64,000 nucleotides of DNA from positions 806,001 to 870,000 of the forward strand of contig CATQHC010000009.1 of the NCBI GenBank assembly GCA_958295775.1, read 5' to 3'. The DNA is from Chloroflexota bacterium. Lineage in GTDB: Bacteria > Chloroflexota > UBA11872 > VXOZ01. Below are positions 51,972-59,280 of the stretch, piece after piece (within the stretch, counting starts at the first letter, position 1; each line of letters begins with the position of its first letter). A model generated the notes under the pieces. The model worked only from the letters and a program-made list of their open reading frames with translations, did no database searches and was not told the DNA's origin. Both the position numbers and the translations under genes were made by a program.

Positions 51972-52044
51972 GCGATTTTCGATTGCCATGTCTGAACGTA
52001 AGCAGGCGTTGCTGACGAATTACGCCTTGCCGCGGCTGAATAGT

Positions 52045-52083
52045 ACCCTCTCCCGTCAAGGGAGAGGGATAGGGTGAGGGTGA
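52045..52083. repeat. Full copy of the GAGAGGG-GGGTGAGGG repeat
   Basis: CCCTCTCCCGTC and AAGGGAGAGGG form a hairpin, followed by ATAGGGTGAGGGTG. This is a complete copy of the dispersed family and matches the arms split by IS481. It lies between the RidA and MFS genes. Confidence 0.65.
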
Positions 52084-52150
52084 ACCGCCGGCCGCGGATG
52101 CATGAACTACACTCCCACTACCACGTCTCGTTTCTGCAGGGCAAACTCCC

Positions 52151-53561: not shown

Positions 53562-53978
53562 CTACTTGCGCCAACTTCCAAAAGTCGTAACGCGCCATTT
53601 GCGTCTGAGCCAGGAACGAAGTGTCTCACGCCTCGTTGTTGAGCTAAGCATGCGATCCCGCTCGATGTCCGCATACTCCGAATGGCGACCTGGATCGATC
53701 CTCTTCAACCAGATCACGGAATTGCTTCGTATTTTGTAGTGGCTGCCGCAGCCGGAATTAGCCCATACCGACCCACCCGTAGGGCCGTCCAGGGAGACCG
53801 ACTTCCCATCGAAGTGAATGTGCCATCGACTGGGGTGGAGGGTTAGTACCGTCAGACTGCTACAACCACACGGACAGCGCAGGTTAACGGTCCGATGCTT
53901 GTGGCTGATCCAAAGCTCGCCCTCCTTAATTTCGTCGAACTCGGGCAGTACCTCTACGAAGATAGGACGCAGTTTCAC
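53562..53978 (-). CDS. DUF6527-like Cys-rich protein, third gene of the ubiquitin-like operon
   Basis: The 138-residue protein has a short Cys knuckle, LRCPCGC (C35, C37, C39), and a later GCGSHYKI (C77, H80), a plausible zinc site. A basic C-terminal third (RRETLRSWLRRKWR) follows. It is like the small DUF6527 proteins that accompany multiubiquitin-type operons, from memory. Its GTG overlaps the stop of the E1-like gene by 4 bases (GTGA), so it is translationally coupled. Possible roles are an E3-like or peptidase-like accessory factor; not proven. Confidence 0.6.
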   Translation of the reverse strand: MKLRPIFVEVLPEFDEIKEGELWISHKHRTVNLRCPCGCSSLTVLTLHPSRWHIHFDGKSVSLDGPTGGSVWANSGCGSHYKIRSNSVIWLKRIDPGRHSEYADIERDRMLSSTTRRETLRSWLRRKWRVTTFGSWRK

Positions 53979-55186
53979 GCGCGGGACTCCTGCGAATCAG
54001 TTCCCACAGACGCAATGTGCGGCTTCTCGAGTCGCAACTTATGGAGAAACGAAGACGACTCCGAAACATACTGCTCGGTGCGCCGCCGCCACTCCATCAC
54101 GGCGAGCGATGCCGCCAGCGCGTTCACCTCCGGCAGTTGGACATTGCGATAGCCGGGGGCACGGCCTTCCAGTTTGGCGTTCGGTATGGCGCCCTTCCAC
54201 GCGTCAGAACCTGCATCAAAGGCACTGGTTGTCACAGCGCCTCTAACAGCGCAGTCCTCTAGCGTTATGCTCACACCCGAATCAATGAATGGAACGCCAG
54301 CCTCCATGACAGCGCAGTAAACGGCATCCTGGCGCGCCGAGTCACCGTCAGTGAGCTGGTCAATACACACAAACGCGTAGTCGATAGGATGATCCGCCAG
54401 GAACCTGGCGAACATTGACGGGCTATCCACTTGGAAAGGATGCGGATGGATGCCGGACCGGAAGGCCGCAAACTTGGAATAATAGTAATCGACCTTGAGC
54501 AGCGACCCCGCACGAACGAGTTCAATCTCCTCGGCAGTAGGTGCGCCGGGGGCTCGATTGAGGGTGTGCCAGTCGACTCGATCAGAATCCAGTAAATGGA
54601 TTTCCGAAACGGGCGTCTTGGCAATGAGGTCAAGAAGGTAGGCACCGGTTCCGCCCAAGCCGATAATCGCAATGCGCTGACCGCGGATACGATCCTGAAC
54701 GGGGGCGATGGCGGCCCGTGCCTCAAACGTGTTGGGTATATGGAAGGGGTTGGATATCGCGAGAGCAGCAGGCTCAGTATTGCTGGCAGCCGACACGGCG
54801 CCTACTATGTGCTTTGCGTAGCGGTGGAGCAGATCGTGGGCCGTTTCGTCCGGCTCCGGATGGCCTTGGGCACCTCTCTTGATGGAGATGTTTGACCAGG
54901 TTTGGCCATCACCGCCAACTTGGTTCCCAATAGGCGTTCCGTCCGCATGATACACGCACCCGTCATACTTCCCGTCAGTGGTAATCAGCACCGCATGGAA
55001 GTCTCCGCCTATCCGTTTATCCGGTTTGCCACTGGCGGGGTCGTAGGACGTCTCAATTGTACAAGTGCCAATAGTTCCGTCCTTTAGGAGACAAGGAACC
55101 TCGACGGCCTGGACACTATCGGATTTGACATTGACGGTAAACCCGGCCTGCTCACCGAACGCAGTGAGGCGGTCCTTACGAGACAT
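53975..55186 (-). CDS. E1-like ThiF/UBA-type adenylyltransferase with an extra N-terminal domain
   Basis: The 403-residue product starts at ATG 55186 (the longer open frame overlaps the upstream gene). Residues ~1-140 are a separate domain (DUF6791-like by memory; VEVPCLLKDGTIGTC, FHAVLITTDGKYDGCVYHADGTPIG), possibly an inactive E2 relative. Residues ~165-370 are a ThiF/E1 adenylation domain: GLGGTG at 176-181, LLDSDRVDWHTLNR near 198-211 (with the Asp and Arg of ATP use), and CIDQLTDGDSARQDA near 274. No CxxC zinc pair is seen; Cys 274, 291 and 312 are possible thioester sites. It probably activates the small beta-grasp protein encoded just upstream, with which it overlaps by 11 bases. Confidence 0.8.
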   Translation of the reverse strand: MSRKDRLTAFGEQAGFTVNVKSDSVQAVEVPCLLKDGTIGTCTIETSYDPASGKPDKRIGGDFHAVLITTDGKYDGCVYHADGTPIGNQVGGDGQTWSNISIKRGAQGHPEPDETAHDLLHRYAKHIVGAVSAASNTEPAALAISNPFHIPNTFEARAAIAPVQDRIRGQRIAIIGLGGTGAYLLDLIAKTPVSEIHLLDSDRVDWHTLNRAPGAPTAEEIELVRAGSLLKVDYYYSKFAAFRSGIHPHPFQVDSPSMFARFLADHPIDYAFVCIDQLTDGDSARQDAVYCAVMEAGVPFIDSGVSITLEDCAVRGAVTTSAFDAGSDAWKGAIPNAKLEGRAPGYRNVQLPEVNALAASLAVMEWRRRTEQYVSESSSFLHKLRLEKPHIASVGTDSQESRA

Positions 55187-55424
55187 GTTCCGGGTCGACC
55201 GAGAAACTCGTGCCGTCCTTGACTTTGACGTCCTTTCCGGGCAGGAGAACACCGCTCTCGCCTTTCAAGTCGTCTTCATAGTCGATGCCAGGCGTGCCGA
55301 TGATGTGCTTATTCTCAGGCGCATGTAGCTCGTTCCAGATTTTCACGATCTGCTCGTAGGTAACGAGATTGCCAGGAACTTTGTACTCTCGACCGCTCAC
55401 GTAGATTTGCGTATCGCCATTCAT
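55176..55424 (-). CDS. Multiubiquitin-type beta-grasp protein, single domain
   Basis: The 82-residue protein begins MNGDTQIYVSGREYKVPGNLVTYEQIVKIW, then a loop (ENKHIIGTPGIDYEDD) and a conserved end GVLLPGKDVKVKDGTSFSVDPEHVS. This pattern is that of the multiubiquitin (ubiquitin-like beta-grasp) family. Only one copy of the domain is present and the C-terminus is not GG, unlike classical ubiquitin. The start is ATG 55424 (AAGGGA 10 bases upstream); an upstream TTG adds six residues. It is the first gene of a three-gene operon with overlaps of 11 and 4 bases. Confidence 0.72.
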   Translation of the reverse strand: MNGDTQIYVSGREYKVPGNLVTYEQIVKIWNELHAPENKHIIGTPGIDYEDDLKGESGVLLPGKDVKVKDGTSFSVDPEHVS

Positions 55425-55448
55425 GTGGTAAAATCCCTTCAATTGCTA

Positions 55449-55508
55449 TTGCGATGTCTGGTTGCTAATCTATGATTCTATTATAGGTGGTCGGTTTGAG
55501 AAGTGCAA
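55449..55508. promoter_or_regulatory. Face-to-face divergent promoters and candidate operator
   Basis: Minus strand: -35 TTGCAC (55503-55508) and -10 TATAAT (55480-55485) with a 17-base spacer, for the ubiquitin-like operon. Plus strand: -35 TTGCGA (55449-55454) and -10 TATGAT (55471-55476) with a 16-base spacer, for the XRE gene. The dyad AATC-TAT-GATT (55467-55477) overlaps the plus -10. Any regulator bound here could control both. Confidence 0.55.
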
Positions 55509-55525
55509 CCCCTAAGGAGGCCCAA

Positions 55526-55885
55526 ATGGACCAAAAGCACGGGAAATTCGACAGCAAGGGATTTTACGAGGCACTGGACGCAACGCGCAGGTCAAGGAAC
55601 CTCAACTGGAAGGAAGTCGCCGCCCAGTCGGGGGTCAGCGCTTCGACTCTGACGAGAATGGCCCAAGGAAAGAGGCCGGATGTCGATGGACTAGCCGCGC
55701 TGGTGTCTTGGTCTGGGCTCAAGGCAGACGACTTTGTACGTTCTGAGAACCAGCAAGGCGAGCCCGAGCCCCTGGCGATGATTTCGACCTACCTCAGAAG
55801 CGATAAGAACCTGACGCCGGAAGCAGCGGCAACACTTGATGAGGTAGTAAAGCTGACCTATCAGCGACTGAGAAAACAGGAGTAG
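55526..55885 (+). CDS. XRE-family transcriptional regulator
   Basis: The 119-residue protein (ATG 55526 after AAGGAGG) has an XRE/Cro HTH near residues 10-65 (GFYEALDATRRSRNLNWKEVAAQSGVSASTLTRMAQGKRPDVDGLAALVSW) and a C-terminal helical extension. It is divergent from the ubiquitin-like operon and followed 3 bases later by the ImmA/IrrE gene. It is likely the operon's repressor, and target or partner of the metallopeptidase. Confidence 0.88.
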   Translation: MDQKHGKFDSKGFYEALDATRRSRNLNWKEVAAQSGVSASTLTRMAQGKRPDVDGLAALVSWSGLKADDFVRSENQQGEPEPLAMISTYLRSDKNLTPEAAATLDEVVKLTYQRLRKQE

Positions 55886-55888
55886 CTG

Positions 55889-56485
55889 GTGAAACTACGG
55901 AGGGGATTCAAGTCTGAAGCAACCAAATTGGCTTTGGAAGTCAGGGCTGAACTTGGGCTTGGGCCGCTCGATGGCCTCGACCCTCTCGGCCTTGCCCAAC
56001 ACCTAGAGATTCCTGTTGTGCCAGTAAGCAGTCTCGCACCTGATTCGGCCAAAATCCAGTACTTCCTTTCAGATGAGCGGGAGGCATTCTCCGCCCTAAC
56101 CGCCTTTGATGGCTATCGAAGGATGATCGTCCACAACGATTCTCATTCCAAGGTGCGGCAGAATAGTAATTTGGCACATGAACTTGCCCACGCCCTCCTA
56201 CTCCACGATCCTGAACCCGCTCTTGACCCGGCGACGGGGTGCAGGAATTGGAATGACGATAGAGAAAAGGAAGCACAATGGCTTGGTGGAGAGTTGCTTG
56301 TAACCTCTGACATGGCACTAGCCGTCGCGCGGGGCAAGTTCTCAGAAATAGATGCTCGGGAACGACTTGGCGTGAGTGAAGCGATGCTTAGGTGGCGTAT
56401 CAACGCGACCGGTGCAAGCAAGCGAGTTCAACGTGAGCGGATGCGAAGGCGAGAATCGAAGATTAGCACCACCGCCGCCACGTAG
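55889..56485 (+). CDS. ImmA/IrrE-family metallo-endopeptidase
   Basis: The 198-residue zinc peptidase has the HELAH motif at residues 97-101 (NLAHELAHALLLHD), and a third-ligand Glu region near 128 (EKEAQWLGGELLV). Its GTG start follows AGGAG and lies 3 bases after the XRE stop. ImmA-type enzymes cleave XRE-type repressors to switch on prophage, conjugative or stress genes. Here the likely target is the XRE protein, thereby inducing the ubiquitin-like operon. Confidence 0.9.
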   Translation: MKLRRGFKSEATKLALEVRAELGLGPLDGLDPLGLAQHLEIPVVPVSSLAPDSAKIQYFLSDEREAFSALTAFDGYRRMIVHNDSHSKVRQNSNLAHELAHALLLHDPEPALDPATGCRNWNDDREKEAQWLGGELLVTSDMALAVARGKFSEIDARERLGVSEAMLRWRINATGASKRVQRERMRRRESKISTTAAT

Positions 56486-58092: not shown

Positions 58093-58359
58093 CTGCCGGT
58101 TGTGCTTGGATAGTCTGACCCAGAATCCTGTCTAGCCCCGGACGGTTCGCACTCACCGGCAGCAGATTGTTACTCAGCGACGGGCTTAGGTACCACCTAC
58201 CGTGCACTATGCTATGGGAAGAGGACAGGGCGCAGTGGAACGGTCCAATTGGCGTTAATCGCCCGAATCCGAGAGCAGAATTTACCCCCGCGTTGGCCTC
58301 CTCGGGTTCATCCTAAATGTAGAGTGTATACGCCAGCTAGCATCAGTGGAGACGGTTCC

Positions 58360-59280
58360 GTGGACTTCGACCGGGATCACGACGCGCGAGTTAGATACGC
58401 GGCCTTTGACTGGCTTACCCGGCAAGTCTCCTTACATGACGACGTACTTCCGCGTGCCACCCTCGCCCAAGGGTTTCAGTTTGATGGGCAACGTGTGCCA
58501 GTAATTGGGCCGCAGGGCATCTTCAAACCACGCTTGATGCAAGTTCCGCTTTCGATCACAACAGCGCCCAAGGGACCGTATGACGATGCGATAGGCCCAG
58601 ACAACCTCATCCAGTATCGATATCGTGGAACCGATCCGACCCATCGGGACAACGTAGGTTTGCGATTTGCAATGTCCAAGGGTCTCCCGCTCGTGTACCT
58701 CCATGGAATCGTCCCGGGTCGATACCTGGCAATGTGGCCCGTCTATGTGATCGGTGATGAACCCGAGACGCTCACCTTCTCGATCGCAATTGACGATGCA
58801 ATCCATGCTGGTCTCTTTCCGCAGACTCAAGAGGCGGTTGGAGGAATTGCTGAAGTCCGACGAGAATACGTTACTTCATTGGCTCGGCACCGACTGCATC
58901 AGAGGGCGTTTCGCGAGCGCGTCCTCCTTGCCTATCGGAACCAGTGTGCTCTTTGTCGTTTGAGGCATAGTGAGTTGCTTGACGCAGCCCACATAGTGCC
59001 GGATGCAGATCCGGAGGGTGAACCTGTAGTGCGAAACGGCATTGCACTATGTCGATTGCACCATGCGGCCTTTGATCGGTACTTCCTGGCGGTGCGCCCC
59101 GATCGGATCATCGAGGTCCGCCAAGACATCCTCGAGGAAAGCGATGGCCCGACTTTACAACATGCAATACAGGGCCTCCACGGCCACTCAATCGTATTGC
59201 CGAGTAAATTGGCGGAACAGCCGGGCATCGAGTTTCTAGCCAAGCGGTACGAGCAATTCCTTGAAATAGTGAGGGCATGA
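58360..59280 (+). CDS. HNH endonuclease with an N-terminal sensor-like domain
   Basis: The product is 306 residues from GTG 58360 (GGAG 8 bases upstream); the open frame reaches further upstream with less credible sequence. The N-terminal ~190 residues contain VLPRATLAQGFQFDGQRVPVIGPQGIF, YRYRGTDPTHRDNVGLRFAMSKGLPLVYLHGI and GRYLAMWPVYV, which is the domain often found before HNH in putative modification-dependent restriction proteins. The HNH is CALCRLRHSELLDAAHIVPDADPEG and NGIALCRLHHAAFDR, near 195-245. No methyltransferase is adjacent, which fits a modification-dependent or other stand-alone defence role. Confidence 0.8.
   Translation: MDFDRDHDARVRYAAFDWLTRQVSLHDDVLPRATLAQGFQFDGQRVPVIGPQGIFKPRLMQVPLSITTAPKGPYDDAIGPDNLIQYRYRGTDPTHRDNVGLRFAMSKGLPLVYLHGIVPGRYLAMWPVYVIGDEPETLTFSIAIDDAIHAGLFPQTQEAVGGIAEVRREYVTSLARHRLHQRAFRERVLLAYRNQCALCRLRHSELLDAAHIVPDADPEGEPVVRNGIALCRLHHAAFDRYFLAVRPDRIIEVRQDILEESDGPTLQHAIQGLHGHSIVLPSKLAEQPGIEFLAKRYEQFLEIVRA

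Follow-up and report, generated by a model that had tools for sequence, protein, structure and literature searches.

How much machinery does the transfer of a ubiquitin-like protein (Ubl) need, and can a Ubl that ends in serine be activated at all? Both questions can be tested on a minus-strand operon in a Chloroflexota genome (GenBank assembly GCA_958295775.1, contig CATQHC010000009.1), which, together with two divergent regulatory genes, occupies positions 53562-56485 of the window, the whole stretch of 64,000 nucleotides that was analysed and whose numbering is used throughout. The three genes of the operon encode a Ubl, an activating enzyme (E1) fused to an additional N-terminal domain, and a DUF6527 protein. 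Bub-type Ubl systems, a name said to have been given by Gong in 2025 and Ye in 2026, are widespread, and a three-gene version with neither a JAB domain nor a conserved cysteine makes a small and tractable test. We consider it probable that the locus is a compact Ubl-conjugation operon of this type, kept off by a repressor-protease switch of the CapH/CapP type. Gene content and layout, an intact ATP site, a conserved C-terminal serine and the loss of a cysteine can be read from the sequence; transfer of a serine-ended Ubl without cysteine would be the surprising part of the system.

Relation to Bub systems

The first-pass annotation had treated this layout, by implication, as new. By sequence comparison, the operon is instead a divergent, compact member of the known Bub family and not a new kind of system, as control by a helix-turn-helix (HTH) regulator and an ImmA/IrrE protein is common for Bub operons, and Iyer et al. 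(2006) had already set out this operon type as their row 6e, with a subset whose E1 has an uncharacterized N-terminal domain in place of JAB. Since the window E1 has relatives that match DUF6791 within that subset, the window operon can be assigned to it as a divergent member. The best solved relative of the E1 profile is BubCD of Citrobacter (PDB, E 5e-12), and the top PDB fold match of the E1 model is the BubCD-BubB-BubA entry 9eav (E 3e-11), followed by matches that include MccB and MoeB. A Citrobacter plasmid operon encodes a close BubCD homologue (88% over 134 matched residues) in the order Multi_ubiq + Prok-E2_E, Prok-JAB + ThiF and DUF6527, and the D104 position mutated in the PDB entries would, judging from the motif, be the JAMM aspartate.

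Classic Bub operons (Citrobacter; BubA-BubB, BubC-BubD, BubE) share with the window operon a Multi_ubiq Ubl, a ThiF E1 and a DUF6527 protein in the same order, as well as divergent regulators of the same class. They have Prok-JAB fused to the E1, whereas the window operon has no JAB and none of the window proteins at the locus gives a Pfam JAB match; their Prok-E2_E is fused to the Ubl or has its own gene, whereas the window has no separate Prok-E2_E gene; and in those with a stand-alone E2 gene, the encoded Ubl end is ...EG, in contrast to the serine of the window Ubl. The window E1, unlike that of classic Bub, carries a DUF6791-related N-terminal domain. The earlier statement that no separate E2 gene exists extends to the whole genome, in which Prok-E2_E (PF14462) was not found. 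The absence of a deubiquitinase is likewise correct for the locus; the single good Prok-JAB match of the genome is located on a different contig, next to a gene of the MoeB/ThiF type. A classic Bub operon was also seen in genome G040 (L004/L014, L104), where a gene combining a JAB motif and ThiF is followed downstream by DUF6527, and Prok-E2_E is about 1.7 kb off; the adjacent gene looks, by eye, like an SppA/ClpP-type serine protease and is a possible extra protease.

The row-6e subset (PRK06153 / DUF6791 + ThiF) resembles the window operon in its architecture, its one to three Ubl repeats, its metal-site protein and, by profile-profile comparison, a homologous N-terminal domain. It differs in that the window E1 belongs to an eight-member clade forming a separate branch of the tree (100/100 support, long stem), which lacks the cysteine conserved in the DUF6791 proteins of row 6e and is too divergent for the DUF6791 model. 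The likeness to Bil and to the Cap2/Cap3 proteins of type II CBASS lies in the logic of E1-driven conjugation: weak E1-E2 model matches are confined to the nucleotide site, and the window clade has no JAB, no nucleotidyltransferase and no cysteine-bearing E2 domain. According to a 2026 paper (one of PMC13373217 and PMC10904395), Bub operons were not shown to protect against phage. The phage-inducible tagging put forward in the first-pass annotation is hypothetical.

The three conjugation genes

Pfam matches were judged against curated cut-offs, which all five genes pass (bits, with cut-off in brackets): Multi_ubiq PF14452 27.6 (24.5), ThiF PF00899 45.4 (28.1), DUF6527 PF20137 47.8 (23.6), HTH_3 25.7 (23) and Peptidase_M78 PF06114 58.2 (22). 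The identities first proposed for the beta-grasp protein, the ThiF E1 with an extra N-terminal domain and the DUF6527 protein are upheld by the first three of these matches. Start sites were refined from Shine-Dalgarno-like sequence and relatives. The reported arrangement of overlapping minus-strand genes divergent from XRE and ImmA/IrrE genes was confirmed to the base, with overlaps of 11 bases between Ubl and E1 (Ubl stop 55176, E1 ATG start 55186) and 4 bases between E1 and DUF6527 (E1 stop 53975, DUF6527 GTG start 53978). A neighbourhood search, which the same annotation had suggested, finds that almost every one of some 80 relatives, from many phyla, has the order Ubl - E1 - DUF6527. Relative to L017, L018, L019 and L023 (62-88% amino-acid identity), the ratio of nonsynonymous to synonymous substitution rates (dN/dS) is about 0.05-0.3 for the conjugation genes, one DUF6527 dS not being computable; the three genes are under purifying selection and are therefore real and maintained.

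The Ubl (BubA-like; 55176-55424, minus strand) is a single beta-grasp Multi_ubiq domain with the end ...FSVDPEHVS, and its refined start at 55424 gives 82 residues, as in L017-L019 and L022. It has, as originally described, one domain and no Gly-Gly end; the terminus is serine. This serine is invariant in the single-domain Ubl relatives (40/40) and closes all 85 DUF6791-type Ubls on the fetched contigs, the window's included, of which 54 were seeds picked for a serine end and 31 were later hidden Markov model finds not so picked; the sole exception seen is a single alanine end (DKA) in the Ubl of a congener operon (L137). The serine end together with an overlap of the Ubl gene with the E1 start, as in the window, is a trait of the DUF6791-ThiF subset that emerged from this analysis and not from a published definition. 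An origin of the serine as a by-product of gene overlap was rejected, the same residue being found with overlaps of 26, 11 and 1 bases and with an AGC codon. Because relatives show no variation at the encoded C-terminus, the window-type Ubl is probably encoded in its mature form, and the claim that its processing must differ from that of ubiquitin is better recast as probably none being needed. The best solved relative of the Ubl, PDB entry 9cd2, the ZDHYS365 multi-ubiquitin domain protein, belongs to the same family (E 2.3e-20 against the family profile) and ends ...TDKS; its chain has 222 residues, of which the profile covers the last 82 only, in contrast to the one-domain window Ubl.

The E1 fusion (BubB/BubD-like; 53975-55186, minus strand; 403 residues) comprises an N-terminal domain of residues 1 to about 150 (54737-55186) and a ThiF/E1 domain of residues about 160-403; its AlphaFold2 model has a mean predicted local distance difference test score (pLDDT) of 82.8. 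The ATP-binding residues G176, G178, G179, G181, D200, D202, R211, K231 and D276 are invariant in all 61 E1 rows of the alignment, the four glycines belonging to the GLGGTG nucleotide-binding motif of residues 176-181 (54644-54661, minus strand). No conserved CxxC columns are seen in this alignment, in keeping with the zinc site reported as missing.

By profile-profile comparison, the N-terminal domain is a divergent relative of DUF6791, aligning with the DUF6791 clade over 117 columns (hhalign E 2.8e-5), and the Pfam DUF6791 model gives no match to it. In the AlphaFold2 model a first helix leads into a four-strand meander, after which come two short strands and then a long helix; by inspection, this order appears E2/RWD-like. 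In local mode, the profile scores against Prok-E2_E exceed 300 of 300 column-permuted nulls for the window clade and 299 of 300 for the DUF6791 clade, and the matches fall in two roughly collinear segments, residues 8-35 (DUF6791 clade) and 78-101 (window clade). Profile and model comparisons thus suggest an E2-like domain, and the earlier idea that it could stand in for an E2 receives moderate support from its DUF6791 homology, its topology and the Prok-E2_E scores above nulls; the weak DUF6791/Prok-E2_E link suggests, as a concrete hypothesis, what the domain left unidentified by Iyer et al. in 2006 may be. JAB homology was rejected, DUF6791 scoring below column-permuted controls.

A cysteine column sets the two groups apart: 48 of 53 DUF6791-type relatives have cysteine there, and all eight members of the window clade have tyrosine, which in the window is Tyr79 of the N-terminal domain (codon 54950-54952). 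The reading of the DUF6791 His-x-Cys as the classic E2 HPN...Cys was set aside, as, by eye, the cysteine falls near the HPN-equivalent position of Prok-E2_E. The only other common cysteine of the family, C274, is present in 48 of 61 rows, adjoins the invariant Asp276 and may resemble a structural position of MoeB-type proteins. In 60 of 61 rows a tyrosine stands 4 or 5 residues ahead of the invariant Gln350, and BubCD has a similarly spaced tyrosine, possibly the Tyr370 that is mutated in 9eav, in a region where the alignment is uncertain. Ye et al. reportedly described cysteine-independent chemistry for Bub.

The DUF6527 protein (BubE-like; 53562-53978, minus strand; 138 residues) carries the signature CPCGC...CGSH, a conserved metal-site pattern formed by Cys35, Cys37, Cys39, Cys77 and His80, in which C35, C39, C77 and H80 are invariant among 60 relatives and C37 is present in at least 90%. 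Its AlphaFold2 model (pLDDT 88.8) has no fold relative in the PDB (best E 0.51). A known protease or deubiquitinase fold was rejected, given no PDB fold match and no sequence match for the 60-row profile, as was an eS27-like zinc ribbon, whose weak single-sequence matches vanished with the profile.

The divergent regulators

Between the two transcription units lies a 101 bp intergenic region (55425-55525; 43.6% GC), a probable HTH operator from consensus matches only; promoter and repeat scans of it found weak promoter-like sites on both strands and nothing clearly beyond chance. On the plus strand follow a CapH-like XRE/HTH regulator (55526-55885; 119 residues; PADLOC capH E 7e-4), whose refined start at 55526 is downstream of AAGGAGG, and a CapP-like ImmA/IrrE (M78) metallopeptidase (55889-56485; PADLOC capP E 1.8e-6) with HELAH at 56177-56191. 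The pair resembles CapH + CapP, the repressor and protease associated with CBASS and Bub, in its placement divergent from the operon, in its HExxH motif and in matching both PADLOC models, although these matches are weak and the likeness is one of sequence. CapP cleaves CapH upon binding single-stranded DNA, and CapW or CapH + CapP were found in 219 of 544 Bub operons (PMC13373217, PMC10904395). The earlier proposal that an XRE/ImmA switch governs an operon for Ubl activation is supported.

Compared with the divergent classic-Bub pair of Synechocystis pSYSX, the HTH protein is 63% and the M78 protein 46% identical, and compared with that in Nostoc, 56% and 45%; both are only 31-37% identical to pairs within the window's own E1 clade. 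Since they are closer to distant Bub operons than to their own clade, the switch is, on these identities, modular and swapped between otherwise distant Bub operons. The shared pair predicts DNA damage as the inducer, and a DNA-damage switch beside the operon is probable.

A different arrangement was met in three other loci, where a protein combining M78, a UvrD helicase and a PD-(D/E)XK nuclease lies just upstream of a Bub-type Ubl (L037:1453-4848, L101:2932-6324, L102:1834-5244), accompanied by a conserved hypothetical gene and one for a regulator resembling sigma-70 region 4. Helicase neighbours also occur in L051, L118 and L119, the M78 part being unseen in the open reading frame used for L051. 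This protein could be a DNA-end-sensing repressor protease and hence a further kind of Bub switch.

Proposed mechanism and alternatives

In the mechanism that we infer, the HTH protein would repress the divergent operon until single-stranded DNA from damage or infection activated the M78 protease and the repressor was cleaved. The E1 domain would adenylate the encoded C-terminal serine of the 82-residue Ubl without prior processing, the fused E2-like domain would, without a conserved catalytic cysteine, help in handing the Ubl over to a target protein at an amine or hydroxyl, and the metal-binding DUF6527 protein would act in target recognition, transfer or removal. A more specific version is offered tentatively: a minimal Ubl pathway whose tag ends in serine, whose E1 and E2 both lack a catalytic cysteine and which has no JAB, so that transfer would proceed directly from the adenylate or via an oxyester and the tag would be permanent or removed by DUF6527. 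If true, DUF6791 would prove to be an E2-like domain of the BubB type that is joined to the E1. Several points weigh against conjugation under such a switch. A serine-terminated Ubl is unusual as an E1 substrate; the E2-like call consists of topology and short profile matches with hhalign probability below 10%, and the global-mode Prok-E2_E score is not significant for the window clade; the E1 fold search covered about 250 of 403 residues (query-normalised template-modelling score, TMq, about 0.43), and the matches that it listed are relatives of the E1, so that it says nothing about the N-terminal domain; and HTH/M78 pairs also serve unrelated elements.

The E1 might instead activate the Ubl C-terminus for other chemistry, such as MccB-like nucleotidylation or a sulfur-carrier role, with the Ubl as product or carrier. 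MccB, which adenylates a peptide ending in asparagine, is among the next fold matches, as is MoeB, and a clade without E2 catalytic cysteine, JAB or a Gly-Gly terminus would fit such chemistry. We nevertheless regard it as unlikely, as BubCD is closest by both profile and fold, the operon has no rhodanese, transporter or small-molecule genes, and DUF6527 with the same regulators is common to Bub operons that do possess JAB and E2 parts. We give somewhat less credence still to a stress-inducible scaffold, in which the Ubl would mainly self-assemble or bind non-covalently and the E1 fusion would modify only the Ubl or itself; multi-domain Ubls of the family, in Gong's work of 2025, reportedly form filaments. 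RWD-like domains of these operons were proposed to bind ubiquitin moieties (Iyer et al. 2006), but the window Ubl is single-domain, and full conservation of the active site in the E1 implies catalysis.

The remaining alternative concerns the regulators, which would be an unrelated neighbour, a mobile-element regulator or a toxin-antitoxin remnant, with no role in operon control. M78/XRE pairs are a common feature of mobile elements, the M78 protein shows a further, weak match to the spr1629 antitoxin model, and most of the E1 relatives examined lack the exact HTH + M78 pair. Set against this are the same divergent placement in L017, L019, L059 and L095 and in the classic Bub operons L112 and L115-L117, and the fact that the copies of highest HTH/M78 identity are Bub-linked. 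An accidental neighbour is the least probable of the three alternatives, and conjugation under a CapH/CapP-type switch stays the preferred reading.

Distribution and genomic setting

An E1-profile scan of GTDB species genomes confirmed at least 545 relatives of the window E1, and relatives are present in 114 plasmid records. A phage origin was rejected: searching 50,697 phage records with tblastn gave no match, and only three viral contigs carry relatives. The eight-member clade spans Chloroflexota, Gemmatimonadota, Acidobacteriota, Pseudomonadota and the marine group Sva0996, a scatter across phyla that indicates horizontal spread of the operon. The E1 gene is absent from four other near-complete congeneric genomes, three of which have the two flanking genes on the same contig, separated by 4-7 kb that hold unrelated genes; read by eye, these unrelated genes led us to reject a defence hotspot at this site. 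In another congener, G301, a Bub operon of the DUF6791 type, distant from that of the window, has a regulator that unites HTH and M78 in one protein (L137:824-3891).

Two genes past the M78 gene lies an HNH endonuclease gene (58249-59280; PF13391, 43 bits), whose GC content is similarly lower than that of the flanks. On the other side of the operon, at about 52019-52108, the window holds a dispersed repeat of 40-60 bp that is found in many copies across genomes of the genus.

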